Assembly: GCF_018991925.1 (NCBI RefSeq)
Contig: NW_024737068.1
Coordinates: forward strand, 1,369,239-1,433,238
Reading direction: 5' to 3'
Length of the DNA stretch: 64,000 nt
From: Homarus americanus
Lineage: Eukaryota > Arthropoda > Malacostraca > Decapoda > Nephropidae
The notes beneath the pieces are model-generated. The model was given only the letters and a program-made list of their open reading frames with translations, did no database searches and was not told where the DNA came from. Both the position numbers and the translations under genes were made by a program. Every line of letters starts with the position of its first letter. The first letter of the stretch is position 1. Shown one piece after another: positions 3,401 to 27,121 of the stretch.

Positions 3401-4560
3401 TGTGTTAGTGACGTCATGGCACCAATCACTGCTCGAGGATATTGTGTTAGTGACGTCATGGCACCAATCACCACTCGTTTGTTTTAGTGACGTCATGCAC
3501 CAATCACCACTCGTTTGTTTTAGTGACGTCATGGCACCAATCACCACTGAGGATATTGTGTCAGTGACGTCATGGCACCAATCACCACTGTTTGTTTTAG
3601 TGACGTCATTGCACAATCACCACTCGTTTGTTTTAGTGACGTCATGACACCAATCACCACTGAGGATATTGTGTTAGTGACGTCATTGCACCAATCACCA
3701 CTGAGATATTGTTAGTGACGTCATTGCACCAATCACCACTCGAGGATATTGTGGTGATGTCATGGCACCAATCACCACTCGTTTGTTTTAGTGATGTCAT
3801 GGCACCAATCACCACTCGTTTGTTTTAGTGACGTCATGGCACCAATCACCACTGTTTGTTTTTAGTGATCATGGCACCAATCACCACTCGAGGATATTGT
3901 GTTAGTGACGTCATGGCACCAATCACCGCTCGAGGATATTGTGTTAGTGACGTCATGGCACCAATCACCACTCGTTTGTTTTAGTGACGTCATGGCACCA
4001 ATCACCACTGAGAATATTGTGTTAGTGACGTCATTGCACCAATCACCGCTCGAGGATATTGTGTTAGTGATCATGGCACCAATCACCACTCGTTTGTTTT
4101 AGTGACGTCATGGCACCAATCACCACTCGTTTGTTTTAGTGACGTCGCACCAATCACCACTCGTTTGTTTTAGTGACGTCATGGCACCAATCACCACTCG
4201 TTTGTTTAGTGGACGTCATGGCACCAATCACCACTCGAGGATATTGTTAGTGACGTCATTGCACCAATCACCACCGAGGATATTGTGTCAGTGACGTCAT
4301 GGCACCAATCACCACTCGTTTGTTTTAGTGACGTCATGGCACCAATCACCACTCGTTTGTTTTAGTGACGTCATGGCACCAATCACCACTCGAGGATATT
4401 GTGTTAGTGACGTCATTGCACCAATCACCACTCGAGGATATTGTGGTAGTGACGTCATTGCACCAATCACCACTCGAGGATATTGTGTTAGTGACGTCAT
4501 GGCACCAATCACCCAATCACAACTCGTTTGTTTTAGTGATGTCATGACACCAATCACCAC
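487..4560. repeat. Two-monomer minisatellite with TGACGTCA in most units
   Basis: This is an array of roughly one hundred units of two interspersed types that share one half. Type A has CTCGAGGATATTGTGTTAGTG and type B has CTCGTTTGTTTTAGTG; both continue into ACGTCATGGCACCAATCACCA. Type A is about 42 bp and type B about 37 bp. Most units hold a perfect TGACGTCA palindrome and a CCAAT pentamer. Single-base deletions are common (ctgagg for ctcgagg, gtaatg for gtcatg). The many open frames across the array, on both strands, are repeat artefacts and not genes. Confidence 0.95.
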
Positions 4561-4860
4561 TCGAGGATTGTTTTAGTGATTGAGTGGCGGTATGGCACCA
4601 ATCACCACTCGAGGATTGTTTCAGTGATTGAGTGACGGTATGGCACCAATCACCACTCGAGGATTGTTTCAGTGATTGAGTGACGGTATGGCACCAATCG
4701 CCCTCAGTTGTTTCTGGTAGTGGGCTGGTGTAAACAATCACCACTCGAGGATTGTTTCAGTGATTGAGTGACGGTATGGCACCAATCGCCACTCGAGGAT
4801 ATTCTTTTAGTGATGTCATCGCACCAATCACCCCTCTAGGATTGTCTTGTGGCACTATTA
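4561..4860. repeat. Diverged edge of the minisatellite
   Basis: These units are longer (about 48 bp) and have changed sequence. GGATTGTTTCAGTGATTGAGTGACGGTATGG replaces the TGACGTCATGG part, so the palindrome is lost. About six copies are visible, followed by decay into unique sequence near 4,840. This is the usual pattern of older repeats at an array margin. Confidence 0.85.
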
Positions 4861-7630: not shown

Positions 7631-7750
7631 TGTTTGGTCTCGTTACAGTTGCTTTGGTCTCGTTACAGTTGCTTTGGTCTCGTTACAGTTGCTTTGGCCT
7701 CGTTACAGTTGACTTGTTCTCGTTACAGTTTCCTTGGTCTCGTTACAGTT
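7631..7750 (+). repeat. Six 20-bp repeats, each ending in a splice-acceptor-like CGTTACAGTT
   Basis: Exactly six 20-bp units, consensus gctttggtctcgttacagtt, run directly into the first recognised Ir25a exon. The last unit supplies that exon's acceptor (CGTTACAG, then TT of the exon). All six carry the same CGTTACAG, so five decoy acceptors lie 20, 40, 60, 80 and 100 nt upstream. The frame of the exon stays open through the array back to about 7,634. Confidence 0.9.
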
Positions 7751-7874
7751 ATGACGTATGACGAGGACAACATGCTGGTAAAACAGAGCCTCGACGCGGC
7801 CATCTCTTACTTGGAGAAAAATACAGGAGAAGGCGCTATGGTGGACGGCAAGCACATCTACGCCATCCCGAAAG
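7749..7874 (+). CDS. Ir25a exon 1 of window (start of amino-terminal domain)
   Basis: Encodes [20 protein letters not shown] and on to YAIPK. The acceptor is CGTTACAG in the last 20-bp repeat and the donor is AAAG/gtgagt. It enters with two bases of a split codon and leaves in phase 1. The ATG inside it is internal: IR25a proteins have more sequence N-terminal to this point. Confidence 0.88.
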
Positions 7875-8104
7875 GTGAGTAACAACAATAAAATCTCTAG
7901 GCCTAATTTAACCTAATGTTTATCTACCTTTTTACTTCTTCTACGAGGTTAAGTGATAGCTAATAGAGTTATATTTTGTTTGAAAATATTTTGGAGATGA
8001 TTAAATGTTGTCAAGTTGATTTTTTTATTTAGTTAGATGTGGTTGTGTGTCTTTGGGTGAATGGATGGGTCGTTTATCATAGTTTCCCATATACGTTCTT
8101 TATG

Positions 8105-8136
<32 letters not shown>

Positions 8137-11100
8137 GAATGGTGTATTGTTTATGCCTAACTGCTATGTTTATGTATTTTGCTCTGTTAGGGGAATATCT
8201 ACAGTACAAAAGCTTATATTTATGATAGTGTTTTTTTTATCTCAAAGACAAGCTAATTTATCGGTATAGTAATTGGTAACCTAGTAGTAATGTATAGAAT
8301 TGTTAAATTATGCGTCAATATTTATAATTGCCTGTACAGATGTGTTCACTGTGTATACAAGAAAGCCCAGAAAACTAGAAAATATTACTGCTTAAGTATT
8401 CGTTAAGTTGTGCTCAAATTTCCCCGTTATAAGTTAAATCATAATAGCCTACGTCCTCACTTGTAAAATCTCTTTCAAATTTGGAGAGAAAAAATGCAGA
8501 AACAAAAACTAGTTACGTGGTCAAGAGAATCTCAAAGAAAACCACTAGAGTTAATGGTATTACAGAACATGACAACACACTCACCAACGCACTCACCAAC
8601 ACACTCACCGTTATCTAAGTCGACCACCCTCTGTGAAAAAGAACTTCCTTATATTCGTTCTGTATAATAACTTGGCGATCTTGTAGTTATGTCCCCTCGT
8701 GTTGGTGGTGCGTGACATCACAAGAAAATGTCCCGGGTTCACGTTTTCCATCACTGTCAAGATTTTGAATGTTTCAATGAAATCTGCCGTATCATTACTG
8801 CCCTTGACCCGTAACTTCAGAAACAGGGCCACCGGGATATTTTGGTGCCCTTGATTCGATAAACGTGATATTGAAAACCATTCCCCAATGCGTGTCTCAG
8901 TTCACGACACACCATAAGAAATTCCCAAACACAAGAAAGCTCTCTGTGACGTTACATGATCGCCAGCGGAGGCAGTCAAAGGCTGATCAATACTTGGCTA
9001 ACACTCACCTAGAACCTACCTCTATGACCACTACACCGTGTTGGTTTACACTCTCGTAATTTGTGTATAAATATTCATACACTACAGTTATGGAGAATCA
9101 ATGGCTAATCTCTTATACTCAAGAGGACTTAAGGCCACCGAATCTAAGAGTCATTCCACCAAGACCTGGCCTTTGTGAGTTAACCAAAGTGACCGATACT
9201 GCCCGGGCACTCACCTAGATAACTGTAGCGTATCAATATAACCTATTCGTAGTGCATTACCATTGGTGAAATATACAACAGGTTGAGTGCGTGTCGTCCT
9301 GTACTGAGTCTCGTGAGTGGTGTTCTCTGTGTGTGTTGGGTTAAGTGAGTCAGACTGAGTTAGGTTGAGTGAGGTTAACTTAGGTTGTCTTAGGTTAAGT
9401 TAGATATACAGTACATACTTTGACTTCTAATTCCACGCCTCTTCTTTTAAACTCAATCTCTTGGTCACAGGAAACGATGTCGAGGTGACGGTCAACAAAT
9501 CGTGTGATCTAATGGACGAAGCTATCGACGCCGGCAAGCCACCTCACATAGTACTCGATGCCACCACTACGGGCATGATCTCTGAGACCATCAAGAGTTT
9601 CACCAGAGCCCTTACCCTCCCCACCTTCTCCGCCTCATACGGCCAGGAAGGAGATATAAGGCGAGGATCCCTAGGAGACAGACAGATAGGTAGACAGACA
9701 GATAGGCAGGTTGGTAAACACTAAACAGATAGGCAGGTTAACAGAGAGACAGGCAGATAGACAAACAGATAGACAGAGAGATAGACAGACAGACTTGAAA
9801 TAGACATAGAACCCATATCATAAAAGTTGAGTCTTGCAGTGTAATGATGTTATAAGGAACACAAGTTAAGGTCAACAGCCATAGACACGTATAGGTGCTG
9901 ATGGCGTTTGTCACCTGTTTAGGGAGTGGCGGAAACTAACACCTAGTGAAGAGGAGTACCTGGTGCAGTTGATGCCTCCAGGTGACATCATCGTCCAATC
10001 AATCAGGGACATCGTTCGTACTCAAAACATCACTAACGCGGGGATAATCTATGACGATACTTTCGGTAAGTTCTTCGTCAGTACCCTTTCCTTTACACAC
10101 ATGTCTTTATCACCCTTCCCTCTACACACATGTCTTTATCACCCTTCCCTCTACACACCTATCTTTATCACCCTTTCCTCTACACACCTGTCTATCACCC
10201 CTTCCTCTACACACCAGTCTTTATCACCCTTTCCTCGCACACCTGTCTTTATCACCCTCTCCTCTACACACCTGTCTTTATCACTCTCCCCACACCTGTC
10301 TTTATCACCCTTCTCTACACACCTGTCTTTATCATCCTCTCACACACCTGTCGTTACACCCTTTCCCCTACACACCTGTCTTTATCACCCTTCTCTACAC
10401 ACCTGTCTTTATCACCTTTCTCTCTACACACCTGTCTTTATCACCCTTTCCTCTACACACCTTTTCTTTATCACCTCTACACACCTCTCTTTATCACCCT
10501 TTCCTCTACACACCTGTCTCTATCACCCTTCTCTACACACCTGTTTTTATCATCCCTTCTACACACCTGTCTTTATCACCTCCTCTACACACCAGTCTTT
10601 ATCACCCTTTCCCCTACACACCTGTCTTTATCACCCTTCCCCACACACCTGTCTTTATCACCTGCCTCACACACCTGTTTTATCACCTCTACACACCTGT
10701 CTTATCACCCCCACACAATCTGTCTTTTCTCCCCACACACCCGTCTTTATCACCCCCCACACCAGTCTTTATCACCCCCTTCTCTACACACCTGTCTTTA
10801 TCACCCTTCCCCCACACATCTGTCTTTATCCACCTCTACACACCTGTCTTTATCACCCTCCTCTACACACCTGTCTTTATCACCTCCCCCACACACCTGT
10901 TTATCACCCTTCTACACACCTGTCTTTATCACCCTTCCCCCTCACACCTGTCTTTATCACCCTTCCCTCTACACACATGTCTTTATCACCTTCCTCTATA
11001 CACCTCTCTTTATCACCTCCCTCTACCACACATGTCTTTATCACCTCCCTCTACACACCTGTCTTTATCTCACCTCTAAGTACCTGTCTATCTAATCTGT

Positions 11101-11776
11101 GAAAGAAATCAACATTGGTTTTTTACATCAACGTGAGGCCAAAATGCCTTTCATCTTGAGTCAATATCTCTACACACACACACACACACCTCACACACAC
11201 ACACACAGGAAATGTCCAGGAAGGCAAGAACCACCTTATAATATTATATATATATACAATTATTATTATTATTATTATTATCATTATTATTATTATTATT
11301 ATTATTATTTTATTTTTTTATTATTATTATTATTTTACATATTATTATATATTATTATTATTATTATTAAATATTTTAATGTGCGATTTTAAAATGCATT
11401 CTCTCCTCCTCCTACTACCTCCAATCCTCACCATCATTCTCCACCACTATCCTACCTCCCACCAACACCATCACCACCCTCCTCACATCCTCCCCACCAT
11501 CCTACTCTCCACCACCACCACCACCACCACCTGCTCCAACACAGTGATGGAACACAAGTACAAGTCACTGCTACAGAACCTCCCTTGTCGCCACATTATG
11601 ACGAGGGTGGAGGCGACGAGAAGGAAGTGAGGAGACAGACCAAGAGACTCAAGGTTGGTGGTGTCTCTGTACTGTGTGTGTGTGTGTGTGTTGTGTGTTG
11701 AATGGTTTATTGAAAAGTTCTGCAGTCCAAAGGCTGAAGAACCAATAAAACCATTTATTATTGTGTGTATGTGCGT

Positions 11777-11810
<34 letters not shown>

Positions 11811-14800
11811 CTGTGTGTGTGTGTGTGTGTGTGTGTAAGGCCCCCAGTAGAGTACCTGTACTATTTATCTACTGCCTCCAACCTCTCCCTTCCTCTCCCC
11901 AGGACGCAGACATCGTTAACTACTTCGCCGTCGGCAGCGGGGACACCATCAGCCGGATCCTGGATGCCGCCACAGCCAACGACATGTTCGGCCGGAAGTA
12001 CGCCTGGTATGCCCTCTCTAAGGTATGCCCCTTCTCTAATCCCTCTCCAACATACGATCTGTCTTCGGGAGGCCTCTATAAGATACACCTTCTGTAAGAT
12101 ACGAGTTAGCTCCTCTCTGAACTTCGCTAAAAACATGACAATTTGCAGTAATCTAATAATGGTAATCATGTATTCAGTTCACGTGTATAAAGTTAATCGT
12201 CAAAAGATATTAAGAATTCAGTTTAGTTAGTGTTCTCGATCCCTAAGTGCTTGTTAACGGCTGTAGGGTGAGTCTTGTTTACATCTGGCCATCACCTATG
12301 ATAATTACACCTGTGAGGATTGTTTACTCTTGGCCTTGAGGTTGGACAGGTGTTAGTATAGACACAGGTGGAGGACTGACAGGTGTTATCGTCACTACAG
12401 GATAACCAGGATATCCAATGTGGTTGTGAGAATGCCTCTATAGTCTACCTGCGGCCTCACACTAGTGCAGACAGTCGCGGAAGAATCGCCATGCTCCAGC
12501 GAGACTACGGGCTTACCAGCACCCCTGAGATCGACGCTGTGGCTTACTTCGAGTACTTCATGCGAGGCATCTTAGGCGCGGCGTGAGTAATGATGAGTCT
12601 TCATTGTGTCACCTCTTTCGTGTGCTTGTGTCGAGGCTCTTCACTACAACACTGTGTGGATATATTAGTGTGTGTTATAGGTTAATAATAGACTGGTCAA
12701 TAACTATAGTAATTCGCTATCCAACACTGACAAACATATACCAGCTGGCTACTGAACACACATACAGTTACTAAGAGTGTAAGATGGCCGATTTCTTTTC
12801 GATATTCACTTGTCACCATTTTTCTAGTTGGTAGTTTTTAAGGTATGGTGTGTGTTATGGTGCCATGTGGTGTGTGTTATGATACCATGTGAGTGGACAA
12901 CTACCATGGTAACCAATGAGAGGGAGTGAGTGGTGTAATCTCTTCATACAGGAAGATGGCGGCTGCTGGCAAGTACACAGACTTCGAGTACCTGAGGTGT
13001 GAGGAATTCAGCGAGGACAATCCCCCCGTCAGGAACGACTTTGACCTACGCTCTGCCCTCCAGTCGGTGAGTCAGCTGAAGGGTCACGGTGTTAGCTATA
13101 TATTTTGCATTATATTTCCCACGTCAATAAAACTAGCATAATAACTATAATTTACTGTATCGGGTTGTTTAATGTATTCCTTGTATTAAAAACCTTACCT
13201 ATACTTCTCCCTGGTGGCAGGTGTCAATGACCAACACCTGGGCGAGTATTAGCTGGGGAAGTAATGGCATGTCGTACCCAGATGTCCCTCTTACTATGGA
13301 CAAGTTCAAGATTCTCGCAGGACGAACAGCGGAGCGCAAGACCTTGGGGGAATGGTCGGCTGGGATGCCCGGTACACTTATGTTCAAGAGTGGCCAGACC
13401 CTTAGTGATTTCCAGGTAAGCTTCCCCTCTATCCTCACCCTCCCCTCTGCCAGGTGAGTCTCTCTGACCTCACGCACCTGGTCTCTAACTTGGGTGACCT
13501 CCTTACCTTCAGACATTAAGGAAACACCGATACTCATAACACTAATGGGGATTATACCTTCATCATTGAGGTTATAGTGACACATTATATTGATCTGGTG
13601 TTGTCGTGTCGCTCTGAACCTTACTGTCAGACCGTGAGGCGTGGTACTACACGTGTCTTGTCCTCAGCAGCTAATGTGTACAACTCTCTGTCCACCACCG
13701 AGGGAGAGGGACGACCTGTATACCCCTGTGAAAATAACACTCATTAGCTGTTTACTTTCTCTTCTTTTGATGTTTGTCTTGTATTTATCCATGTGTTGGA
13801 TAAATATAATTTCATGGTCCATAATGTTTGGATCTCCCTCCCTCCCTTCTCTCCTGGTGCATGGACCCCTCCCTCAATCCTGTTCTTTCCTGCTGCACGT
13901 CCCTTCCTTCCCTCACACTTTCCCTCCTCCCCCCTTCTGGTGCATTAGTCTCTCCCTCCCACCCTCCCTTCCTTACCCTTTCTCTTGTTGCATTCTCTCT
14001 CCCTTCCCCCTTCCTTCCTGCCTTCCTTCTCTCTTATTACACGGTTCCCTCCCTCCCTTCCCTCCCTACCCCAATGCATCAAGTAACCCTAACGTCTGTT
14101 TCTCCTGCTGTAGGCGGTGACTGTGTACAGGGTGACCACAGTACAGCAACCTCCCTTTATCATGAAACGCACCAACGAAGACGGTGAAGACGAATACTAC
14201 GGCTACTGTATCGACCTCATCAACGAAATCAAAGAAATCATCAACTTCGAGTAAGTCCTTCAACCTCTTCCTTGACCGTCTACACCTCAGCCTCTAAGTC
14301 ACTTCAAATTTATGGTCGATTAAGCATTTATTTAAGCCTATAATTACCCCCCAGGCCTATAATTGTGTTGTATCATTCCGGTTCCACCAGATACGAGATT
14401 GCAGAAGCTCCTGATGGCAAGTTTGGCACGATGGACGACAACCATGAGTGGAACGGCATGATCAAGCAACTCATCGAGAAGGTTGGTACCCCTGAACACA
14501 CCGAGGGAACTAGTTTGTGTGTGTGTGTGTCGTAACCCTGGTTTATTTGTTTATTTATTTGTTATTACTATTATTTATTATTAGTAGTAGTAGTAGTATT
14601 CTGTGACACATACGTTTATTTATCACTGACTCACACATCCTGAGACTCACAACAGCTTTTCTCCTACAGCGTGCAGACATCGCCTTGGCACCATTATCTG
14701 TCATGGCTGAACGGGAGAACGTGGTAGACTTCACCGTGCCTTACTATGATCTGGTAGGCATCACTATCCTCATGAAGAAGCCCAAAGTGCCCACCTCACT

Positions 14801-17800
14801 CTTCAAGTTCCTAACTGTGCTGGAGCCTGAGGTGTGGTTGTGTATCCTCTTCGCTTATGGCTTCACCAGGTGAGTTAGGGCTTCGATATCACATACATAC
14901 AGTACTTACATACAGTACATACATGTATACACACATACATAAACTAAAGGACAATGAATAACCGGTCAGTATGTAGTGTGTAGCCGGAGTTAGTTCACTA
15001 CATACAATCATTCATTACTCATTGTTATCCGAATAGTGAATAAGTGGATCTCACGTCCTTACACCACCACCACACCCACTACCACCATTACCACCACCAC
15101 CACCACCATACCGTCACTACCAACACCACATCACCACCATACCACCTCACTATCACTACTATACCGCCTTTCATTACCAACACCACACCACCATCACCAT
15201 TACTACCAATGATATCTTCCTGTCCACATTCTGTCACCCTGAACATCTTCCTGTCCACATTCTGTCACCCTGAACATCTTCCTGTCCACATTCTGTCACC
15301 CTGAACATCTTCCTGTCCACATTCTCTCTCCTAAATCATCTCCTATACACATTCTCTCTCCTAAAACATCATTCTGTACACATTCTCTCTCCTACAGCGT
15401 CCTCCTGTATATCTTCGACCGGTTCAGCCCCTACAGCTACCAGAACAACAAGGAACGCTACAAGGATGACGACGAGAAGAGAGAGTTCAACCTGAAGGAG
15501 TGTCTATGGTTCTGTATGACTTCCCTTACGCCCCAGGTAGGTGCTGAAGGAGGGAGAGGAGGAAGGAGGTTTGGGAGAGAAGAGGGGGACATGAATAGCA
15601 GAAGGTGGAGTAGGAGGAAGCTAGCAAAAAAGGAGGAAGAAGAACAAGAAGATGGAGGAGGAGGAGGAGGAAGAGAATGGGTAGGAAGAGGAGGGTGGGA
15701 AAGTCCAGTCATTGTGTCTATGTTGATGAGTGGATATGTGTTATTGTATGTTGGTGGTAAGAGGAAAAATGTTGTGTTCCTGTGTTCCTGTGATGTTGTG
15801 TTAGGGAGAGCATCACTCAGCGCCCCTTGTGTTTACCCCTCGTGTTCGTCTCTCGTCTCTTCAGGGTGGTGGAGAGGCGCCTAAGAACTTGTCCGGAAGG
15901 CTAGTAGCGGCGACCTGGTGGCTCTTTGGGTTCATCATCATCGCCTCCTACACGGCTAACTTGGCTGCCTTCTTGACAGGTTAGTTGAGATGCCTTATTG
16001 TCACTAATACTAAGACATCCACAAAACTAGTCCCTTGGGAAATTGGGTAGAAATAGCGGCAGAAAAGGAGGGGGGGGAAGGGGGAAATAGGAACTAAGTG
16101 TTCTGGAGAGGAGGTATAGAGGAAAGTGAAAGACTGGGTATTTAACATGGGAAGACCTGGGACCTCAAGAGCTTTAGAAATAATCAAGAACAAGGCATCA
16201 CGTTAACAGGTCATCACGTGAACAGGTCATCACGTTAACAGGTCATCACGTTAACAAGTCATCACGTTTGAGTTAAGGAATAATTGATTGTTTGAGAAAT
16301 GATTTGTTTGAGTTTTCTTATGGCTAGTGTGATTATTATAACTATTATGAGTCATGTAACACCTAACTGAATAACTCTGACGACACCTTTGTATTCCCTC
16401 CTTCAGTGTCGCGTTTGGATACTCCCATTGAGTCCCTGGACGACCTCAGTAACCAGTACAAGGTCCAGTACGCCCCCATGAACGGCACCTCCACCATGAC
16501 CTACTTCGAGAGGATGGCTTACATAGAGAAGAAGTTTTACGAGTGAGTGATGAGTCGTTTAAGGGGGACACTTCACACGAGAGCACCTGTCGTTTGTTTC
16601 ACCTGATGATTAAAAGCCCTAACGATACCTTGGTGGTTTAGGTTAGGTTAGGTTAGGTCTAAAGGTGAAATAAGCTGGGTGCTGGTTTTCACGGAGCGTC
16701 TTTATTAATTTATTTAAAAAGAGGTTCTTATTTAATGTGTCCCTTCCAGTACATCTTCCCGTCACCACCACACCTCCCCATCACCACCACACCTCACCAC
16801 TACCACCACCACACCTCCCCACCTCCCATCCACCACCACCACCACCACACCTCCCACATCCACCACCACACCACACCACCGACCACACCACCCCATCACC
16901 CCCCATCCCACCGACCACCTCACCACTACCACCACCACCTCCCCCTCACCACCACACCTCACCCACCACCACCACACCTCCCCATCACCTCCCCATCGAC
17001 CACACCACCCCCATCACCACCACACCTCCCCCACCACCACCTCCCCATCACCACCACACCTCCCATCACCCACCACCACCTCCCCCATCCCACCACCTCA
17101 ACCACCACCTTCCCCATCACCACCACCACACCTCACCCATCACCACCACACCTCCCCATCACCACCACCTCCCCATCACCTCACCACCTCCCCATCCCCA
17201 TCCGCCACCTCCCATCACCCCACCTCCCCATCACCACCCCTCCCCATCACCACCCCCACCACCCATCACCACCGCCACCTCCCCCCTCCCCACCTCCCCA
17301 TCACCACCACCACACCTCCCCATCACCACCACCACCCACCTCAACCACACACCTCCCCCATCCCCACCCACCCACCCCCATCACCACCACTCCCCCATCA
17401 CCACCACCTCCCCATCCCCCACCACCACCACCTCCCATCCACCCACCACACCTCCCCATCACCACCACACCCCCATCCCCACATCCACCTCCCCCATCAC
17501 CACCACACCTCCCCCCATCTGACCACACCTCCCCATCACCACACCTCCCCTCACCACCACACCCATCACCACACCACCAGACCTCCCCATCACCCCACAC
17601 CCACCACCTCCCATCACCACCACCATCACCACACCTCCCCATCACCACCACACCTCCCATCACCACCACCCCCCATCACCACCTCCCATCACCACCACCC
17701 TTCCATCACCACCACACCTCCCCACCCCCATCACCCCCACCACTCCCCACCTCACCCACCCACCTCCCATCACCACCACCTCCCACCCCCATCCTCCCAT

Positions 17801-20800
17801 CACACACCACCACCTCCCCATCACCACCACACCTCCCCATCACCCACCCCTCCCACACCCACCACCTCCCCCATCCCACCACCTCCCCATCACCACCACC
17901 TCCCCATCACCACCACCTCCCCATCCTCCCACACCTCCCCATCACCCACCTCCCCATCTCACCACCACCTCACCGACCACACCTCACCTCCCACCACACC
18001 TCCCCGTCACCACCACACCTACAATATACATTCCCTCCATCAGGATCTGGAAGGACATGTCACTAAACGATTCGATGTGACATTTAGAGAGACCAAGTTA
18101 GCTGGACTACCCCGGTGACAAATACACCAAGATGTGGCAGTCGATGCAGGGAGGCTGGACTACCCATCACCTTCAAGCCGTGCTGGAGAGTGAGAAGTCT
18201 ACCTCCTCCAGTGAAGGATTTGCCTACCTGAGTGTGTTGTGACAGAGAGAGCGAAGGGGGTGGGGGATAAGGAGGAGAGAGAGGACTGGGAGGGGGGGGA
18301 AGGAGGGGAAGAATGAGAGGGGGAGAGGAGGATTAGCAGAAGAGGTAGAGGGTTGAGAGGCGAGGAGAATAAGAAAGGTTGAGGTGTGATGGTGAAGATG
18401 TGGGGAGAGATGTGTTAAACTGGCTGTGCAATTTAATAATAATCTTCTTACTGTACAAAAAAGATGAATTATTAATGATATATATAAATAACATTTTGTA
18501 GATTAACATTTTGGTTTACCGTGATGGCATCCTCATTTTACTATAACCATCCATATATTTATAAATATAGTTGCATGGCATAAGGTCAACGTTTCTTATA
18601 TAGTTATGGTATAAAGTCCAACGTTTCTTATGGTTATGGCTGGTCAACGTTTCTTATATGGTATGGCATAAGGTCAACGTTTCTTATATGTTCTTGTATA
18701 TTCTAACGTTTCTTTATAGTTATGGCATAAGGTCAACGTTTCTTTATGTTATGGCAGGTCAATATAGTTATGGCATAAGGTCAACGTTTCTTATATAGTT
18801 ATGGCATAAGGTCAACGTTTCAGGTTATGGTATACAATAGTTGTATAGGTCAACGTTTATATAGTTATGGCATAAGGTCATTTCTTATATAGTTATGGCA
18901 TAAGGTCTTGTTTCTACCATAAGGTCAACGTTTCTTATATAGTTATGGTATAAAGTCAACGTTTCTTATATAGTTATGGTATAAAATCGATGTTTCTTGT
19001 ATATTCTGTCTCCCCCTGGCGGCGCATTATGAAAACATTACATCACAAACTATATCGTTAGACAAAGCATCAAATCACAGGTTGTTACGCTGATCTAAGT
19101 AAATTTTTTTTTTTATTGAGACGCAGAATATAGTAACGGTTACTAAGCAGTCACATTAGACTCAGTAACGCCACTTGACCTGTGATATTAAATGAAATAA
19201 TCAGATCAAGATACTTATATACACACTAACGTTTACTCGCGTCTAACACATAGTCAAAAATTCTTCTGACTGTAGCATCTCCTAATAAGTAACAGTAAGT
19301 TCAGAGCGGGATGTAACGCGAGCTTAAGTAACGGATGTAACGTATGGTGAGTCACAATACATATCCCTGTTACGCTCCGTCACCTCAGTAACACGTAACA
19401 TCTCCTGACCAGTAGTAACAGTAAGCTCAGAGCGACATGTAACGGGTTGGTGTGGGCGTGTGACCAACAGGGGACGCGACACAGATCCGCTACGCCATCC
19501 TCACCTCTTGTGATATGATGTCAGTCGGGGACGAGTTCTCCAGGAAGCCTTTTGCCATAGCCGTCACCAAGGGCTCGCCCCTCAAAGACCAGCTCTCAGG
19601 GGCGTGAGTAAATAGATAATACACTTTTATTCCATTTTTTTAACATTTCAACCTTTTTTGGAATGTGTTTTTCTAAGAAGTTTTGTTATTTTTGAGAATG
19701 TGTATTTTTTTTTTAGTGGTGCTTTTTGGTGTTTTCGGTGTTTTTGGTCTGACGGAAAAGCCAGCATGTCCAGATTTTTTTGGCCCTGGTAAATGAAGAT
19801 ATTTTTCCCTGGATGAATTTACTTTTTGATGGCGTGGATCTATTTTTTTTTTTTTTTTGCACTTGGTGATGTTTTGCTGCCATACAACACATTTTTTATA
19901 TGTGTTAAGCATGGCTGTTGTCAGACTGCTGGGCGTTCGTGTTTGGTGATCCAGCATGGATTCATTTTTTTTTTTTCAAGAATGCACCAGAAATTTTTGA
20001 AGTAATTTTTTTCCTTATTACACGAAACATTCTTCAAAGGAAACTACTATTTTTTTCCTCTCCAAAAATCGTCTTAAGGATTACTCTCACTGTTAGCGTT
20101 GATTGGGTACAATATATCCATCTACAGAGTAATTGTTTTTAATCAATGATAACAATTTCTGAAGACAACACAGTCACAGAGTATTTAATGAAGTACAAAT
20201 CGTAGGTGTTGTCTTAACTAACCTGAACTTTTCTCCAACATACACACAACACGACGCATTCTGTCTGTCCATAATCCCGTGGCGATTTACCTTACACACA
20301 CACACACACACACACACAGGTAAGTTAACTCTCGCATCCCACAGCCATGTCCACAGCACCGCCTGTCTGGTCTCTGTCTCATTACCTGAAGGGGCAGAGC
20401 ATGGTGTCCGCGCCACAGAGGTCCTGACTTACGCCCTCAACATGTTCCCTGACACCGTAACCACCTTCTTCTCACTGACCTCCCCGTCTCCCTCCCACCT
20501 CCCACTCTCAGGTGACGCTACAGATATCCGCTACCAGGTGCTGACCAACTGTGACCTGCAAATAGTCGGGGAGGAGTTCTCTCGGAAGCCTTACGCCATC
20601 GCCGTTCAGCAAGGTTCTCCTCTCAAGGACCAGTTCAATGATGCGTGAGTTGGTCCGTACAGGTGGATGACACTCCTCAGTCTTCCCACACACACACACA
20701 CACACACAGTAACAGTAGCCTTCACCCTAGTGTCTCAGCCTTCCATATATTTAGTCGCCTCCACATTGACTTCTCGCCTCTATCACTCGACCTGTTTCAT

Positions 20801-23800
20801 CCTCAACTGTCACCCTCATCTGCCACCCTCAACTGTCACCCTCATCTATCACCCTCATATTTCAACATCATTTTTCTCACTCATCTTTCACCCTCCAACA
20901 ACACCTCCCCGAACACCAACCTGTACTTTGTCCTTCACGCTGCGGCTCTCTATCCCACTGAAAGTATCACAGTGTAAACAAATCCCAGTTAACACACGCT
21001 TACCTCCCTTATTCCTGTAGTTTGGTACCAGGTGAGTATGTTGACTGTGTAGTGACGATAGTCGATAGTTTTCTAGTTGTCATACTTTGTTCTGAACTGA
21101 ATAAAAATGTATAAACTTCAGTCTTGTGAAAGATTATAATCCTCAGTACCCAAACAGCTGGGAGGACGGTAGCATTTATTGAAGGTATGATACTGACTTC
21201 ACCCCATCCAACACACCCTCTGCCAGTTACAATATATAGGCAAATCATCCTACATGGAAAGAGTAGGATGGGAGTATCAATCGAGAGGAGTCCTACGTAA
21301 AGTCATCTCACTACAGTTCCTTCTTCAGTCTCTTGATAACATACAAGCCTATGATCTCCTGAGCTGATAGCGTACACTGTCTGGTCGCTACTGCAGGTTC
21401 CTGGTGGTGTAAGAAAGACAAACTAGAGGAGAGGTGTGTGTGTATGTGTGTCTTAATCTTCAGTACATTAGCTCCAAAAATAGTATCTATACATAGGGTG
21501 ATCGATGAATTTCAAAATGAGCACTGTGACTCCTGTTGTCTCTTATGGGTTGTCAAAATCCTTCATCCGTTGTGTCATATTGTCTCAACACAAAATCGTC
21601 AAGATACTTTTTTGGAGGGCGAATGTACATGTATGTTTTTCTGTCCTTTACGTACGTTGTTGTCTTGTTCTTGTGCTTGATATATGATCATCTGTACGTA
21701 CTTCACTCAACACGTACCAGTTAATCACGTACAGTGGTAAATAAAACACTAAGTCATTGTTTCTCTGCCTGCGTGTGTGTTTGTGTCACCGAGGAACCTA
21801 AAGACGACTGTAAATAAAGAAAAAATGAAATAATGATAAATAGAATGTAACTGTTTGTACGTGGTAGATTAGTAACATTATTGATTTTTTGTTTTGTGTC
21901 TAATTTGTGAGGACAAGTTGATTATTATTGCCTGTTGTTATTTTTGTTTTTGTTGATTATCTTATTTTGTTTTCCTTGTCTTCCTCCTCCTCCTCTCCCT
22001 CTTTTGTCCCTTATTATCAACTCCCTTACGTTTCTGTTTTCCTTGTATTCCTTTCTTCTTCTTCCTCCGTCTTTCCCACATCCTCTTCTTCCTTTCTCTC
22101 CCACTTCCTTCTCCTCCTACTCCATTCTTGCCCCACTACCACCACCCCTTCTCCCCACCACTTCCCCTTTCTCCTTCTCTCCATCACCACCTCCTCCTCT
22201 TCCCTTCTCTCCTCTGCTCTCCCGCACCCCACCACCTCCTCCCCCTACAGGATCCTGAAGCTGTTGAACCAGAGGAAGTTGGAGACGCTGAAGGAGAGAT
22301 GGTGGAATCAAAACCCTGAGAAGAAGGTCTGTGAGAAAGACGACGACCAGAGTGACGGTATTAGCATCGAGAACATCGGTGAGTGAGGGAGAGGGGAGAG
22401 GGAGAGAGGGGGGAAGGGAGGGAGGAGTGAGTGAGGAAAGGAAGGGAGAGAAGGAGAGGGAAGGGTGGGAGGAGAGAGAGAGAGAGTGCGTTACAGGGAG
22501 TCACACCATCATATAGTTAGACTAGAAACTCCCATAACACCATATTGTTTACATACTAACTCATCCCGCGGCCGCCAGGTGGTGTGTTCATCGTGATCTT
22601 CGTGGGCATCGGGCTGGCGTGCGTGACTCTGGCCTTCGAGTATTGGTGGTATAAACATCGTAAAGGCCCCCGCGTCACTGACTCCGCCAAGGTGCTGGCC
22701 GTCAGGGAATACCCCACCAACGACGTCGACAAGACCAACTTCAACCCTGAAAAGTCCGATTTCAACACGCAATACAAGTACGTCATATCTCTTTATTTAT
22801 ACACGAGATCTTTTTATTTATAGGCCTACACAGATGTCTCATGAAGCGTGTGTAGAGGTAGTTGTAATGTCACCATGTTATTTCTGTTGTTTTTTTTTGC
22901 CATAGAATGTGCAATAGGGAGTGGCGCCTCGAGAGTATTAAGCTCTGTATCACATCCTGGCTGATCATACAACAGAGCTGACCAGAGCTAAACTAGTCTT
23001 AGAGCTAATCTCAGCCAGAATCAGTTAGGGGTGATTAGAGCTAGCCATAGAGAAGGGAGATCAGAGCTAGTGATTGGAACTACAGCAGCAATCAGAGCTA
23101 GTGATCAGAGGTAGTAACAGAGAGGTGAACAGAGCTTGTGATCAACTTAACGTAAGTAAAGGACACTGGCCTTGTAGTAACACACTGGGCTTCGTATTCA
23201 CAAAGACTTTACATGTATAATTTCCCTCGTAACTGGTGCTACCTGAACGTAACAAAGTAGAGTCTCAGTACAACTCTAATATAATTCTGGATGTCTTTCT
23301 TGTGCTTTAGAATAATAAGTGATAAATGAAGTTGTTCTTAAATCGCCAGTTACGAGGAGATATCGATTAACAACCCCTTGAGAAACTATGATGTGATGTA
23401 AGGTGTCTAAGGAACACTTCTCTCACAAGGCGTCGTGACGGAGCCTCTCTGTGTACTGTGTGTAGGCGACAGACACAGCTTCATCAACCCATCGAGTAAA
23501 TTCCTTGTTTTTTTTTTTCTTCTCATTCTTCCAAGCAGCCCTGTGATCCAAAACTGAGGGCAGAGATATACGAGATGACCTTTTGACTTCTCTCAGTAAG
23601 GACCTGGCAGGCTGTGGTGGTCTCAAGCCTAAAAACCAGACACTTGCATGTACTCTTAAGTCCAGATTGTGTCTTTCTGAAGAATTTTTTATTTCTTACT
23701 ATTTCTTCTCCGTTTCTTGAGGACCTGAGTGATGATAATGATGGTTTAAGATTATTTTTATGGTTCACAGCACAACCACTTCCCTTCACTGAGCTGCATG

Positions 23801-26800
23801 CGTCATAAGTCCCGGTGCACTTGTTTGTAATATTCCTCATTATTTACATTTTCTGTATTTTCATAAACATTGAAGAGCTTCTGAAGAGATTAAACAAGAA
23901 TAGTAAACATGAGTGACCTTTTTGGAGAATCTAAAAATGTTTACAATAGATAAACACAAAAACAGACTGACAGAGACAAAAACACACACACACACACACA
24001 CACAGACTAATATTCATACATATACATACAACCACGTCTATACATACACAAACATACAGTCAAACACAAATAACATCTATAACACACAGCTGAGACAGTA
24101 GTGAGGACAGTAACCAACACAACTACTACAGGTACTTCCCAGGCAGTAGGTGTTGACAGGTTAAGTATAGAGAACAGCTGGAAGGTGTCCTACCACAGAG
24201 GACATATAAACACGTGATTTAAATATTTCCACAAACCTTCCTCTGTGTGTGTGTGTGTGTGTGTGTGTTTTGTTTTTAAGCACATAATTTCAAGTGATAT
24301 GACTGCACACGATAGCACTTCTGTTTTGCACTGTTTACTCCAAGTTCTTCTGTGATTGGTGTTAAACGGACCAAACCTCAGAGGGTCGGGTTGTTTTCCC
24401 GAAGGTGGTGACTGCCGGAGAGAGGTTAGGGAGAGAGCGTCAACTAGGAGGGAAAGTCCAAGTAGGAGAGTCTACTAGGAGAGATATTCTACTAGCCCCT
24501 TGTGTATAGGATCTCCTCTTGCTGAATAAAATCTGGCGTTAATCGTAAAAAATACTAAAAGTGACGTCCCTGTAGTTAAAGGGGTTCAGGTCTATGAATC
24601 AGTTTCAATAATGACCTCAGTCTCGACCACTATCTCCTACTTATAGAAACAAACTCTCTTCCCAACGTCCAATTAAAATTAGTTTCAAGACAGTTATGAA
24701 ACCTAATATATAAAGCCATCACTACCGATAAGTTCCATGTTGCGATTCACTTTAACCTTTGAAAAAAAAAAAGGAATAATTTCGATCCTCTTCACCTGAT
24801 TCTTCCAGATATGTCTTTTGTCACTGTAACTCTGATGACCTACAGTGAATTCCCTAAACTAATTGGTGCTGTTGACGTGTATTGTATTGAAGCGATATAA
24901 TGAACCATAGAACAAGATATACCACACACCCCAAAAAGTACCTAGACGATTTGGTGTTTAGACAATTATGACACAACGGATGAAGGATTTTGATAACCCT
25001 ACTGAGACAATAGGAGTCTTAGTGTTCTTTGTGAAATTCATCGATCACCCTCCATCAAGATACTTTTTGAGATGTGTACAAGAGCTGATAACATGTCACT
25101 CACTAAACCTTATGGTAGTTTTCTTTGTCGAGTTGATGTTCATAGTGTGACTGCTTATCTTCAAACCACTCATCTTCTTACCTGACTATATGAACTTTAT
25201 CAACCAATTACTAGAATACTTTAACAACAATTAAGTCTCCCTCATAACCTTGTTAGTTGAGATGGATTTTCATAGTTTATCCAAAATTCGAATCCCTCTG
25301 CTTATTTCAACTGAAAAGTAACCACCCTAACGCTAACCTAACTTAAACCTAACCTATATTAAGCTATCCTAACCTAACCAGCTATCCTAACCTAACCAGT
25401 ATTAACCTAACCTAACCTATATTAATATAACCTAACTAGACCTAACCTAACCCCCAGATAGCGTTAGGGTGATTAATCTGCAGGTGATCCCATATGCTAG
25501 TATCAATAAACTGCCAGTGTGAAGAGAACATATCCTCGCGGTTCGTATAAAATAAATACCAACCTTCTGGATGTGAAGTCAACTGAGGTCTGGTCCGTTG
25601 ATGTGTACCGTACAGTACACACACACTCTCTCTCTCTCTCTCTCTCTATGCATGTATAGTATAGTCGGCCCTTCAGAGTATTTGCATAATTTATAAGTGA
25701 ATTAAAGCATTGGTGTTATTTTTGGCGGAGACTTGAATATTCTTCCGCCTATGAGTAAAGAGCAATTGATTTGTGTGTGTAAGGGTTTTGATCTCATAAC
25801 TCAGGGTTTTTAGATACATTCTCTCGTAAGGGGCCAAATAAATAGGAGATTCCAGTCAAGAGTTTATTAATATAAAAAGTACATCACAAGTTCTATTTAT
25901 ACTCGCTCACGCTTTCCACACAAATACAACAAAAATATAATAATATATCTTCCATTCTAGAAAACTTTACCACTTTATAGCTATGAAAACAGTTCAAGTA
26001 ACAACAAGTAACTCAGCACGGTATTAGAACATCCAGGAGGCGGGTTATCTGAAGAAACACTGGCTGGCTCCCACAGTCTGTTCGCTACCCAATCGCGTCA
26101 TACTTGTAGGCCTCGGGACATACTACAGTATATAGTCCCCCTGGCTCATTTCTTGGCAGCTGAATTTTCATCACTACTACAGTCATTTTCCTTCACTTAT
26201 AAGAGCGCTATGTACCCCATCACTCCTGGAGAGAGAATGCGGAGTGCCCCAGTGACAGCGAGGATACCCTGACCACAGTACCACACCTCGCACACAAACG
26301 AACACACGCACTGGAACACAACAAAATCTAGCGGTAACTCGCGTAAGGGCTATCTACTCTATTCCCTTACAAGGTGAGGTATGAATCCTGCTGAGCTAAC
26401 CCTCTCACACGTCAACAAACCGATGGCACTGGCAGCAACATATCTTATTTTCTGTTGCGGTTTGTTTGGATACATTTTTATTACAGATCCAGTGTCCATA
26501 TTTCTTTGGCCGACTGTACATCAAGCTTGTTGTTAATATTTTCTTTAATTATATTTTTCTTATAATACTTTATGATTTGTTTACCTGCTGATATGTGTTA
26601 ATTTTCAAACTGTAATAACTGTACATTAAAAACAACCATGTAAAATAGCCGCCTTTAAACCACTTACAATTAAATAACAATAAGTGAGCATGAAGAGGAT
26701 CTAATTGTAGATATAGAGGCAATTTTGGATAGATGAATAACCAGCTTAATAGAACAGTGTTTAGTACTTTAGAAATGGTAGCGTCCTTACGGCATGAATA

Positions 26801-27121
26801 ACCTAAACATCAATCTAAAATACCAGTTAAAATTCATTCATAAAATTAACTTACCTATGTTTTTGTTTCTTTGTTTAGAATTTACGCACCACACATACCG
26901 TTACCAAGCATATCAGCACAGCTTGTTGCCTCCTACTAACCCAAGCTACAGTTCAGGCAAACGAAGCATATAATCCCACTTTACCCGGTATCCCTCTCCT
27001 CTCTCACTTAACCTTCATCACCATACTACTGCCGTACCTTACCTGACATTAACTTGACTCTCTCTTACCCCACAGCACCGGAGAAGGCTTCGACATCGCG
27101 CCCGTGGCCAACCCTTGGTAG
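7749..27121 (+). CDS. Ionotropic receptor 25a (IR25a) gene, 5'-incomplete, 19 coding positions
   Basis: IR25a is the widely expressed co-receptor subunit of chemosensory (also thermo- and hygrosensory) ionotropic receptors, a variant ionotropic glutamate receptor that works in the dendritic membrane of sensory neurons. The assembled exons give an amino-terminal domain (exons 1-8), S1 (9-11), M1 (11-12), pore loop (12-13), M3 with [11 protein letters not shown] (13), S2 (14-17), M4 (18) and a short tail ending ANPW. The S1 ligand arginine is in [11 protein letters not shown], the S2 hydroxyl residue in [10 protein letters not shown], and the S2 acidic residue is the Asp of the DAT motif. Total is about 2,692 coding nt, about 897 aa, against roughly 950 aa in Drosophila, so only the N-terminal exon or exons are missing. 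Oddities are a duplicated S2 exon, two frame-broken exons and one GC donor. The family call is from remembered conservation. Confidence 0.95.
7875..9470 (+). other. Ir25a intron 1 of window
   Basis: Non-coding, with (GT)n at 8,106-8,131 and short (ccaacgcactca) repeats near 8,580-8,607. It holds a degenerate LINE fragment (listed separately) and irregular ggttaagtgag/TTAGG-like words near 9,340-9,405. Confidence 0.8.
8611..8850 (-). mobile_element. Degenerate fragment of a non-LTR retrotransposon ORF2 C-terminus
   Basis: The minus-strand frame reads [20 protein letters not shown], then [13 protein letters not shown] and [11 protein letters not shown]. This follows the post-RT pattern of CR1/Jockey-type ORF2 (RGDxIExxKIL, TRGHxxK, RxxIRxxFF). 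It lacks the RT core and loses the frame after FFTE, so it is a relic inside the Ir25a intron, opposite in orientation to the gene. Confidence 0.6.
9471..9660 (+). CDS. Ir25a exon 2 of window (amino-terminal domain)
   Basis: Encodes [20 protein letters not shown] to [11 protein letters not shown]. Acceptor is ttggtcacag. The only donor that keeps the conserved GDIR-EWR junction is ATATAAG/gcgagg, a GC donor. It leaves in phase 2. Confidence 0.9.
9661..9922 (+). other. Ir25a intron with GACA/GATA repeats
   Basis: The 5' part (about 9,676-9,795) is degenerate (GACA)n/(GATA)n. No gene is seen. Confidence 0.8.
9923..10065 (+). CDS. Ir25a exon 3 of window (amino-terminal domain)
   Basis: Encodes [20 protein letters not shown] to [10 protein letters not shown]. 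Acceptor tcacctgtttag, donor TTCG/gtaag. MPPGDII...I and NAxIxYDDxF are conserved in IR25a. Leaves in phase 1. Confidence 0.93.
10070..11095. repeat. About 28-bp pyrimidine-rich minisatellite in an Ir25a intron
   Basis: The unit is near acacacctgtctttatcacccttcctct, with about 37 irregular copies and many small indels. All three + frames stay open for over 300 codons ([19 protein letters not shown]), which is a composition artefact and not a gene. Confidence 0.95.
11096..11544 (+). other. Rest of Ir25a intron
   Basis: Holds (CA)n at about 11,172-11,208, (TTA)n at about 11,262-11,372 and CCA-rich sequence up to the acceptor ctgctccaacacag. Confidence 0.8.
11545..11653 (+). CDS. Ir25a exon 4 of window, with 1-nt frame break
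   Basis: Begins [20 protein letters not shown], conserved in IR25a. The frame then meets TGA. One base deeper, the expected charged segment [14 protein letters not shown] is open to the donor CTCAAG/gttggt. The length (109 nt) is also one base short of what the flanking phases need. This is a single-base deletion near 11,605-11,615, either a sequencing error or a real mutation. Confidence 0.85.
11654..11902 (+). other. Ir25a intron with (GT)n
   Basis: Two (GT)n tracts lie near 11,672-11,696 and 11,762-11,836. No gene is seen. Confidence 0.8.
11903..12022 (+). CDS. Ir25a exon 5 of window (amino-terminal domain)
   Basis: Forty codons in phase 0/0: [20 protein letters not shown] to KYAWYALSK. 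Acceptor cctctccccag, donor TCTAAG/gtatgc. Confidence 0.93.
12023..12400 (+). other. Ir25a intron
   Basis: No repeat or gene of note. The acceptor is cgtcactacag. Confidence 0.7.
12401..12582 (+). CDS. Ir25a exon 6 of window (amino-terminal domain)
   Basis: Encodes [20 protein letters not shown] to [11 protein letters not shown]. The donor is GCGGC/gtgagt, phase 2. It corresponds to the NATIMFMKP to FLTIKE region of the fly protein. Confidence 0.93.
12583..12951 (+). other. Ir25a intron
   Basis: Contains two partial copies of gtgtgttatggtgccatgtg near 12,848-12,890. Otherwise featureless. Confidence 0.7.
12952..13066 (+). CDS. Ir25a exon 7 of window (amino-terminal domain)
   Basis: Encodes [20 protein letters not shown] to DLRSALQS. 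Acceptor cttcatacag, donor CAGTCG/gtgag. Phase 2 in, phase 0 out. DxEYLxCxxF is conserved. Confidence 0.93.
13221..13415 (+). CDS. Ir25a exon 8 of window (end of amino-terminal domain)
   Basis: Sixty-five codons in phase 0/0, encoding [20 protein letters not shown] to SGQTLSDFQ and including [12 protein letters not shown]. Acceptor ctggtggcag, donor TTCCAG/gtaagc. Confidence 0.92.
13416..14113 (+). other. Ir25a intron with long polypyrimidine tract
   Basis: The region 13,828-14,080 is almost pure C/T with irregular ccctccctcccttcc words. Open frames across it are artefacts. Confidence 0.8.
14114..14250 (+). CDS. Ir25a exon 9 of window (S1 begins)
   Basis: Encodes [20 protein letters not shown] to [16 protein letters not shown]. 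QxPFIM and [10 protein letters not shown] mark the start of S1 of the ligand-binding domain. Acceptor ctgctgtag, donor TTCGA/gtaagt, phase 2. Confidence 0.95.
14391..14481 (+). CDS. Ir25a exon 10 of window (S1)
   Basis: Encodes [20 protein letters not shown] then [10 protein letters not shown]. Acceptor gttccaccag, donor GAGAAG/gttggt. WNGMIKxL is the typical iGluR S1 element. Confidence 0.95.
14670..14869 (+). CDS. Ir25a exon 11 of window (S1 ligand Arg, first half of M1)
   Basis: Encodes [20 protein letters not shown] to CILFAYGFT. The Arg in MAERE aligns with the invariant iGluR arginine that holds the ligand alpha-carboxyl. [11 protein letters not shown] follows, then M1 starts at VWLCILFAY. 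Acceptor ctcctacag, donor ACCAG/gtgagt, phase 2. Confidence 0.96.
14870..15397 (+). other. Ir25a intron with CCA-rich and 31-bp tandem repeats
   Basis: The region 15,060-15,200 is (CCA)n-like. The region 15,207-15,390 has about five copies of a 31-bp unit containing cttcctgtccacattctgtc, decaying toward the acceptor; the last copies provide its pyrimidine tract. Confidence 0.85.
15398..15536 (+). CDS. Ir25a exon 12 of window (M1 end, M1-M2 linker, pore helix)
   Basis: Encodes [20 protein letters not shown] to [12 protein letters not shown]. [19 protein letters not shown] and [18 protein letters not shown] are very conserved in IR25a. Donor CCCCAG/gtaggt, phase 0. Confidence 0.97.
15537..15864 (+). 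other. Ir25a intron, GA-rich
   Basis: The region 15,545-15,705 is A/G-rich (ggaggaggaagag-type). No gene is seen. Confidence 0.75.
15865..15979 (+). CDS. Ir25a exon 13 of window (pore, M3)
   Basis: Encodes [20 protein letters not shown] then [18 protein letters not shown]. This is the iGluR-wide [10 protein letters not shown]3 signature. Acceptor gtctcttcag, donor ACAG/gttagt, phase 1. Confidence 0.97.
15980..16406 (+). other. Ir25a intron with 16-bp repeats
   Basis: About five copies of tcatcacgttaacagg lie at 16,196-16,266. A G-rich patch is near 16,068-16,085. No gene is seen. Confidence 0.8.
16407..16542 (+). CDS. Ir25a exon 14 of window (S2 begins)
   Basis: Encodes [20 protein letters not shown] to [24 protein letters not shown] carries the S2 hydroxyl ligand residue. 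Donor TACGA/gtgagt, phase 2. Confidence 0.96.
16543..18043 (+). other. Ir25a intron filled by a C/A-rich minisatellite
   Basis: After (ttagg)-like words at 16,641-16,657, the tract 16,745-18,020 is an irregular array of tccccatcaccaccacacc-type units. The 443-codon open frame across it (His/Pro/Thr/Ser only) is an artefact, as are the Gly/Val/Trp frames on the other strand. Confidence 0.93.
18044..18231 (+). CDS. Ir25a exon 15 of window (S2), multiply frame-broken
   Basis: It starts in frame as [11 protein letters not shown] and then hits TGA. Conserved pieces follow in other frames: RETKLA, then [19 protein letters not shown] and [18 protein letters not shown]. At least three small indels are needed. 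The total length (188 nt) still fits the flanking phases 2 and 1. Acceptor ctccatcag; proposed donor CCTGA/gtgtgt, weak. This is either a local cluster of read errors after the long C/A-rich array or a real lesion. Confidence 0.8.
18232..18559 (+). other. Ir25a intron, first part
   Basis: A GA/GGGA-rich tract lies at about 18,243-18,400. The rest is AT-rich and no gene is seen. Confidence 0.7.
18560..18992. repeat. About 31-bp tandem repeat upstream of the duplicated exon
   Basis: The unit is near atagttatggcataaggtca plus acgtttcttat, with about 13 copies, several truncated. It lies in the intron before the exon pair 16a/16b. Confidence 0.9.
18993..19470 (+). other. Ir25a intron, last part
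   Basis: Has two related segments about 115 bp apart, around 19,275-19,330 and 19,390-19,445. Both read close to catctcctaa/gaccagtagtaacagtaag, then gctcagagcg and atgtaacg, a diverged direct repeat just before exon 16a. No coding sequence is seen. Confidence 0.6.
19471..19603 (+). CDS. Ir25a exon 16a (alternative S2 exon)
   Basis: 133 nt encoding [20 protein letters not shown] then [20 protein letters not shown] and LSG. Acceptor gtgaccaacag, donor GGGGC/gtgagt; phase 1 in, phase 2 out. It is the tandem homologue of exon 16b. It retains the acidic ligand residue (first Asp) and FSRKPxAIAV but differs at many following positions. No stop and no frame break. The 16b version is closer to the IR25a pattern of other arthropods as I remember it, so this copy is the derived one. 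Confidence 0.88.
19604..20511 (+). other. Intron between the alternative exons
   Basis: A T-rich stretch (poly-T runs at about 19,705-19,715, 19,839-19,858 and 19,963-19,978) is followed by (CA)n at 20,296-20,319. The segment 20,321-20,440 looks less AT-rich but shows no conserved protein. The acceptor of 16b is ccactctcag. Confidence 0.7.
20512..20644 (+). CDS. Ir25a exon 16b (alternative S2 exon, canonical-like)
   Basis: 133 nt encoding [20 protein letters not shown] then [20 protein letters not shown] and FND. Phase 1 in, phase 2 out, exactly as 16a; donor GATGC/gtgagt. [32 protein letters not shown] is nearly invariant in arthropod IR25a. The first residue is the S2 acidic ligand position. 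Confidence 0.95.
20645..22250 (+). other. Ir25a intron
   Basis: Has (CA)n at 20,688-20,708, repeated caccctcaactgt/catct words at 20,805-20,870, and a long C/T-rich tract (21,965-22,250) that forms the acceptor pyrimidine run. The open frames here look accidental. Confidence 0.75.
22251..22378 (+). CDS. Ir25a exon 17 of window (end of S2)
   Basis: Encodes [20 protein letters not shown] to [12 protein letters not shown]. Acceptor ccccctacag, donor ATCG/gtgagt. LKxxWW and [13 protein letters not shown] are conserved. Phase 2 in, phase 1 out. Confidence 0.97.
22579..22777 (+). CDS. Ir25a exon 18 of window (M4 and cytoplasmic tail)
   Basis: Encodes [20 protein letters not shown], then [12 protein letters not shown] and a tail ending [13 protein letters not shown]. 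Acceptor gccgccag, donor TACAA/gtacgt, phase 2. Confidence 0.96.
23225..23357. repeat. Small foldback, MITE-like
   Basis: cctcgtaactggtg at 23,225 and cgccagttacgagg at 23,344 are inverted copies (13 of 14 match), about 105 bp apart, in AT-rich sequence. Probably part of a short non-autonomous element. Confidence 0.5.
25320..25452. repeat. Interstitial CCTAA-type (arthropod telomere word) cluster
   Basis: Irregular cctaacctaacc words alternate with tattaa. TTAGG is the ancestral arthropod telomere unit. The run is short, degenerate and internal, so it is not a telomere. Similar short runs occur at 16,641, 38,083 and 45,728. Confidence 0.75.
27076..27121 (+). CDS. Ir25a last coding exon
   Basis: Forty-six nt completing a split Asn codon, then [14 protein letters not shown] and TAG. 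Acceptor cttaccccacag. The frame fits exon 18, and the splice site, open frame and stop agree. The tail is shorter than in the fly protein. Confidence 0.85.

Follow-up and report, generated by a model that had tools for sequence, protein, structure and literature searches.

The Ir25a locus

The window, that is, the whole stretch of 64,000 nucleotides of Homarus americanus DNA that was analysed, carries a gene for the co-receptor Ir25a, in which two versions of exon 16, called 16a and 16b here, lie between exons 15 and 17. In a tblastn search of the 64-kb window, the H. americanus Ir25a protein Q95VU2 (P0007), which is deposited as 'Ionotropic glutamate receptor subunit' and which we take to be cDNA-derived, aligned exon by exon over residues 37-936, and its orthology to the gene spans the N-terminal domain, the ligand domain and the channel. 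No exon for residues 1-36 was found within the window by this search, and the end of the last exon was taken from the printed sequence. The features of the window are the following.

7749..27121, strand +: Ir25a gene, represented by the exons that encode residues 37-936 of Q95VU2
18044..18231, strand +: exon 15, upstream neighbour of the pair, ending in phase 1; frame-broken in the window, intact in contig C11501
19441..19470, strand +: acceptor region of 16a, pyrimidine-poor
19471..19603, strand +: exon 16a, the alternative version, residues 769-813, first and last codons split with the neighbouring exons
19635..20140, strand +: T-rich intron stretch behind the 16a donor, with 17 runs of at least five T; a possible splicing control element, noticed post hoc
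20512..20644, strand +: exon 16b, carried by the deposited lobster protein and by the majority of the Ir25a proteins seen
22251..22378, strand +: exon 17, the common downstream exon, entered in phase 2
22579..22777, strand +: exon 18, encoding M4 together with part of the C-terminal tail; contains the lobster equivalent of one antibody peptide
27076..27121, strand +: exon 19, which is the last one and encodes the remainder of the C-terminal tail up to the stop; the second antibody peptide has its lobster equivalent here
41401-44184, 47367-50348 and 56753-58489, strand -: long single-frame ORFs, P-loop GTPase-like (AIG1, E 2e-6; AIG1, E 3e-10; Septin, E 2e-6, respectively)
60168-61247 and 61711-62796, strand -: two ORFs for reverse transcriptase (RVT_1, E 8e-36 and 2e-30, respectively), presumably left over from retroelements

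Kilobases of a degenerate tandem repeat, with a recurring unit containing GTGACGTCA, occupy positions ~480-4850. Within the gene, the exon at 9471-9660 has a gc instead of a gt donor (9660-9666; a GC-AG intron), and more than 1 kb of low-complexity, CCA/TCA-rich sequence lies at 16700-18000, immediately 5′ of exon 15.

In the window, the frame is interrupted both in exon 15 and in the exon at 11545-11653, and since the deposited protein is intact we read these breaks as sequence errors. A second, error-rich copy of the locus is found on the 21-kb contig C11501, in which exon 15 is intact and errors occur elsewhere. As it harbors both 16a and 16b in the same order as in the window, the pair is no joining accident of a single contig, though both contigs are from one assembly. 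The use of C11501 for measuring selection was abandoned, its apparent substitutions amounting to 4-7% in exons and introns alike. A genome-wide protein search gave matches in eight places at E <= 10, four of which lie below E 1e-3, namely the two exons 16b and 16a in the window, the 16b copy of C11501 and an exon of an Ir8a-like gene on contig C22214. The 16a copy of C11501 scored poorly in this search (E 0.19) because of the errors in that contig, but was matched at E 2e-82 as DNA; the matches on C16801, C1845 and C20332 were weak (E 0.02 to 8, 32-39% identity). At E < 1e-3, the search thus found no further Ir25a locus besides the window, C11501 and the Ir8a-like gene. The public gene model of the window locus, P0133 ('Ionotropic receptor 25a-like 1 [Homarus americanus]'), is fragmentary: it reads continuously from 16a across intron sequence into 16b and leaves out exon 17. 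We take this stringing together of both exons as a modelling error, and the model probably needs correction.

Anatomy and frame logic of the exon pair

As stated in a preliminary description of this DNA, 16a and 16b are each 133 bp long, have an AG acceptor and a gtgagt donor, are entered in phase 1 and left in phase 2, and are open throughout. Q95VU2, which carries 16b and lacks 16a, matches both exons over residues 769-813 when compared with the 64-kb window (16b, E 1e-23; 16a, E 3e-15). The divergence reported there is real as well, only its extent of about 15 of 44 residues has to be adjusted to 14, the other 30 residues being equal; at the nucleotide level 42 of the 133 positions differ (12, 8 and 22 at codon positions 1, 2 and 3, respectively). 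The likeness of the two exons exceeds chance. The frame logic put forward in the same description was borne out when the four splice combinations were translated with the intact exon 15 from C11501, since exon 15 of the window is interrupted by in-frame stops and frame breaks: an open frame results from 15-16a-17 and from 15-16b-17, joining of 16a to 16b gives a stop at once, after A813, and direct joining of 15 to 17 gives one two codons on. Reading through the 16a donor leads to the same truncated end as 16a-16b joining. The pair has the sequence features by which mutually exclusive exons are recognized in the accessible part of PMC5740500, as the two are neighbouring internal exons of similar sequence and length, in the same frame, without an in-frame stop and with GT-AG borders; the same source also names junction reads for each exon, with none joining both unless the join gives a premature stop.

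Conservation of 16a

With the 16a segment as query, a protein search gave 76 proteins, five of the 16a type and 71 of the 16b type; a search with 16b added more proteins of the 16b type, and a search among short proteins added P0133 and nine of the 16b type. Of 142 proteins fetched, P0133 was omitted as carrying both exons, and the 16a type makes up five of the 141 examined, all five being gene predictions that may have weak RNA support. Lobster 16a is identical at 45/45 residues to the corresponding segment of the Ir25a 'isoform X2' of both the spiny lobster Panulirus ornatus (P0001) and the shrimp Penaeus chinensis (P0002), and matches those of the porcelain crabs Petrolisthes manimaculis and P. 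cinctipes and of the mantis shrimp Oratosquilla oratoria at 42/45, 41/45 and 39/45 residues, respectively. Despite the identity of their 16a segments, the N-terminal domains of the P. ornatus and P. chinensis proteins agree at 300 and differ at 125 of 425 aligned residues, and a relic would not be kept in this way. Four of the five 16a-type proteins are full-length products of the order 15-16a-17, and the P. ornatus isoform X2 model, which stops right after 16a, is a truncated annotated 16a product. None of the true crab, crayfish, krill, amphipod and isopod proteins seen is of the 16a type, in a set where clustering at 90% identity may hide isoforms. The 16b segment of the lobster is for its part identical at 45/45 residues in Cherax, Hirondellea and Trinorchestia.

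Comparison of 16a with 16b gave a dN of 0.28 and a dS of 1.17 by the NG86 method, the only estimate quoted, as dS was saturated under maximum likelihood. Twelve of the 30 residues common to the two exons use different codons, and in none of 100,000 trials did 42 random substitutions lead to 14 or fewer residue changes. In view of this conservation, which is new evidence, 16a is probably functional.

Duplication of an exon rather than of a gene

Trees were built from 36 hand-chosen proteins. In that of the exon (45 residues; 39 rows, 29 of them different), which has only 45 columns and an unsettled bootstrap, 16a forms one clade (96/93) from which Oratosquilla branches first. In the backbone tree, made from the C-terminal 520 residues, exon excluded (36 rows, of which that of the truncated P. 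ornatus protein covers a different span), the five 16a-bearing proteins are scattered among their relatives, and a tree constrained to group them is worse by 304 log units (p-AU 1.6e-5). P. cinctipes has proteins of both types (P0004, 16a; P0078, 16b), which are identical at 283/283, 338/338 and 105/105 aligned residues outside the exon and at 29/45 residues inside it; they are encoded on different contigs and may be alleles or recent copies. That 16a forms one clade and the rest of the protein does not, together with the P. cinctipes pair and the arrangement of the lobster locus, argues for an exon duplication within one gene. Thus, 16a and 16b are to all appearances an old tandem duplication of one internal Ir25a exon. 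Because Oratosquilla is a stomatopod, the duplication is most likely older than the divergence of stomatopods and decapods, a dating that is tempered by the backbone tree, where Oratosquilla is grouped with amphipods.

What the exon choice would change in the protein

In the numbering of Q95VU2 (P0007), the exon starts at D770, which is aligned with a glutamate of kainate receptors that we take to be ligand-binding, and its residues 810-812 form the start of the helix where the flip/flop segment of AMPA receptors begins. Four positions are nearly fixed among the 136 proteins of the 16b type, with D773 present in 135, Q801 in 134, Q802 in 131 and N811 in all 136. All five 16a proteins depart from them, having Q or E at 773, T at 801, K at 802 and S at 811, and are also uniform at the positions of A777, I778, S781, S786, L810 and G812. 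Residue 773 lies three residues past D770, at what we presume to be a pocket-lining place in AMPA receptors. Over 35 Ir25a proteins, four of which are 16a forms, 21 of the 45 exon columns are invariant. It is plausible that the exon choice alters function; the different ligand-domain dynamics put forward in the preliminary description may follow from the changed residues, whose location is suggestive.

Placing the changed residues on AlphaFold models was dropped because the models are too weak over the exon, where both have long stretches below 50 (mean pLDDT 67.1 for Q95VU2, a 16b form, and 69.3 for P0002, a 16a form). Helix, strand and helix occur at matching places in the two models, with one extra short strand in the 16a form.

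Splicing signals

With a pyrimidine fraction of 0.44, the acceptor of 16a is the lowest of the 19 acceptors scored, the last exon not being among them; the next lowest has 0.56, and the 16b acceptor has a strong pyrimidine tract. Behind the 16a donor there are 9 runs of at least five T within 200 nt, as against at most two behind each of the other 18 donors, a density reached by 1 of 1276 overlapping stretches of the window. The whole 908-nt intron after 16a has 17 such runs, which is reached by 4 of 630 stretches, and the C11501 copy has six in the first 200 nt behind its 16a donor. A weak acceptor together with U-rich sequence downstream of the donor points to 16a as the regulated exon of the pair, in need of a U-binding splicing factor, which is only a lead obtained post hoc. 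Inverted repeats near the exons were considered as competing RNA pairings; the 21 pairs found are mostly simple CA/TG repeats or purine/pyrimidine stretches, and none is convincing.

A probable mutually exclusive exon pair and its alternatives

The comparative evidence argues that 16a and 16b are very probably a deeply conserved mutually exclusive exon pair, of which each working mRNA takes one, giving two co-receptor subunits. In the mechanism that we propose, either 16a or 16b would be picked for each Ir25a transcript, and exclusivity would be enforced at least by the reading frame since, with an exon length of 133 nt (1 mod 3), joining of 16a to 16b stops after 16a and skipping of both shifts the frame. 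The two subunits would share one scaffold and differ in a stretch of S2 that is bounded on one side by the acidic ligand residue and on the other by the start of the helix that harbors the beginning of the AMPA flip/flop segment. Both forms would presumably be made in lobster sensory neurons, and the switch could be expected to change gating, assembly or tuning. A truncated product ending after 16a may exist as well, since the end of the P. ornatus X2 model coincides exactly with that expected from joining or read-through. The earlier proposal of two forms arising by a one-of-two choice has thus gained strong comparative support (45/45 residues in three decapods, the isoform names and a clade of its own), and its flip/flop placement has to be corrected: the exon had been said to end just before the flip/flop segment, and in the alignment with kainate receptors it instead overlaps approximately the first six residues, a figure that depends on the exact start of the cassette in AMPA receptors, which we have partly assumed.

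Could 16a be there for its stop rather than for its residues? It might act mainly as a poison or truncation exon, the stop after A813 leading to mRNA decay or to a receptor without the end of S2 and M4, and so set the dose of Ir25a or make a truncated partner. That 16a-16b joining and read-through of the 16a donor end at the same residue, that the P. ornatus isoform X2 ends exactly there, and that in human AMPA genes up to 12% of the junctions link flip with flop (so far as the accessible text of PMC8257547 covers them) would all be in keeping with such a role. However, four of the five 16a-type proteins run on into exon 17, and a poison exon needs no conservation of amino acids accompanied by synonymous change. 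We regard this role as unlikely. We consider it slightly less probable still that one-of-two splicing takes place with functionally equivalent forms, the choice being neutral or only setting expression. The absence of variation in 21 of the 45 exon columns among 35 Ir25a proteins, including four 16a forms, would fit equivalence, but positions 773, 801, 802 and 811, which hardly vary within the 16b class, differ from it in each of the five 16a proteins, where they are mostly restricted to one residue, which suggests a selected difference.

By far the least probable, and about equally so, are two further readings. An unused, decaying relic of the exon duplication would be in line with the weakest of the 19 scored acceptors and with the lack of 16a in the deposited lobster protein, but not with residues that are identical in three decapods of different lineages, a dN well below dS, and an intact frame and splice sites. 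The 16a-bearing proteins might otherwise come from a separate, paralogous Ir25a gene, or the pair be an assembly artefact of the window. The occurrence of the P. cinctipes 16a and 16b proteins on different contigs is, taken alone, compatible with two gene copies, and the second lobster copy on C11501 is short and error-rich; nevertheless, in the window as well as in C11501 a single gene has both versions located between its exons 15 and 17, a 16a gene lineage is rejected by the rest of the protein (p-AU 1.6e-5), and the genome-wide search gave no additional Ir25a locus at E < 1e-3.

Implications

Ir25a is usually regarded as a single invariant subunit. If the switch is used, Ir25a expression maps conceal two receptor types, and the diversification of neurons with common co-receptors gains a directly testable candidate. 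Decapod Ir25a has been reported in many, most or all olfactory neurons, according to the accessible parts of PMC6150509 and PMC7067487, and the latter places two Ir25a antigen peptides of P. argus in the C-terminal tail. Since the lobster counterparts of both peptides are encoded by exons 18 and 19, which lie 3′ of the exon pair, an antibody against the tail cannot separate the two full-length forms and would miss a truncated one. As a broader and tentative proposal, to which we give somewhat less than even chances, eumalacostracan Ir25a, a co-receptor of near-universal occurrence, may be a two-state subunit, in which a choice between 16a and 16b, regulated by cell type or stage and pre-dating the stomatopod-decapod split, sets the binding, gating or assembly of a neuron's IR complexes, forming a layer of chemical coding that is invisible to C-terminal-tail antibodies.

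Comparison with known systems

The 16a sequence is already public in the form of database isoforms, and no description of the exon pair itself was found in a full-text literature search, which covered titles, abstracts and accessible main texts; the string 'splic' is absent from the main text of the crustacean papers PMC6150509, PMC7067487, PMC11939437 and PMC10390513. The Ir25a isoforms X2 of P. ornatus (P0001) and P. chinensis (P0002) have the same 45-residue 16a, letter for letter; P0001 ends after it and P0002 enters exon 17, and both are named merely as database isoforms. The 16b-form Ir25a of other arthropods represents the same gene with the same exon product but, in contrast to the lobster locus, no second version of the exon was seen among their proteins. 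In the lobster gene on C22214 (near 11635324), to which we assign the name Ir8a by presumption, the corresponding segment lines up at the same position and shows 60% identity with 16b across 42 residues (59% across 44). This gene was considered as a second home of the duplicated exon, and the exon was found there as a single copy in the 17 kb examined.

The closest parallel is the flip/flop system of the AMPA receptors (GRIA1-4). As far as the accessible part of PMC8257547 describes them, the flip and flop exons are 115 nt long (1 mod 3) and encode 38 residues, of which 8-10 differ, reaching the S2-TM4 linker; their joining leads to an early stop and probable decay, and joined junctions make up to 12%. 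Like the flip/flop exons described there, 16a and 16b are tandem homologous S2 exons with a length of 1 mod 3, in which the frame would enforce a one-of-two choice and double inclusion gives an early stop. Unlike them, the Ir25a exon starts at the ligand acid and ends approximately six residues into the flip/flop region, and the linker is encoded by the common exon 17, so that the two systems do not cover the same segment; in addition, the Ir25a pair belongs to an IR co-receptor. The Ir25a pair is, on this evidence, flip/flop-like in its predicted logic but a distinct exon, located mostly upstream of the flip/flop segment and, if used, it would give the glutamate-receptor superfamily a ligand-domain switch by exon choice that is separate from flip/flop.
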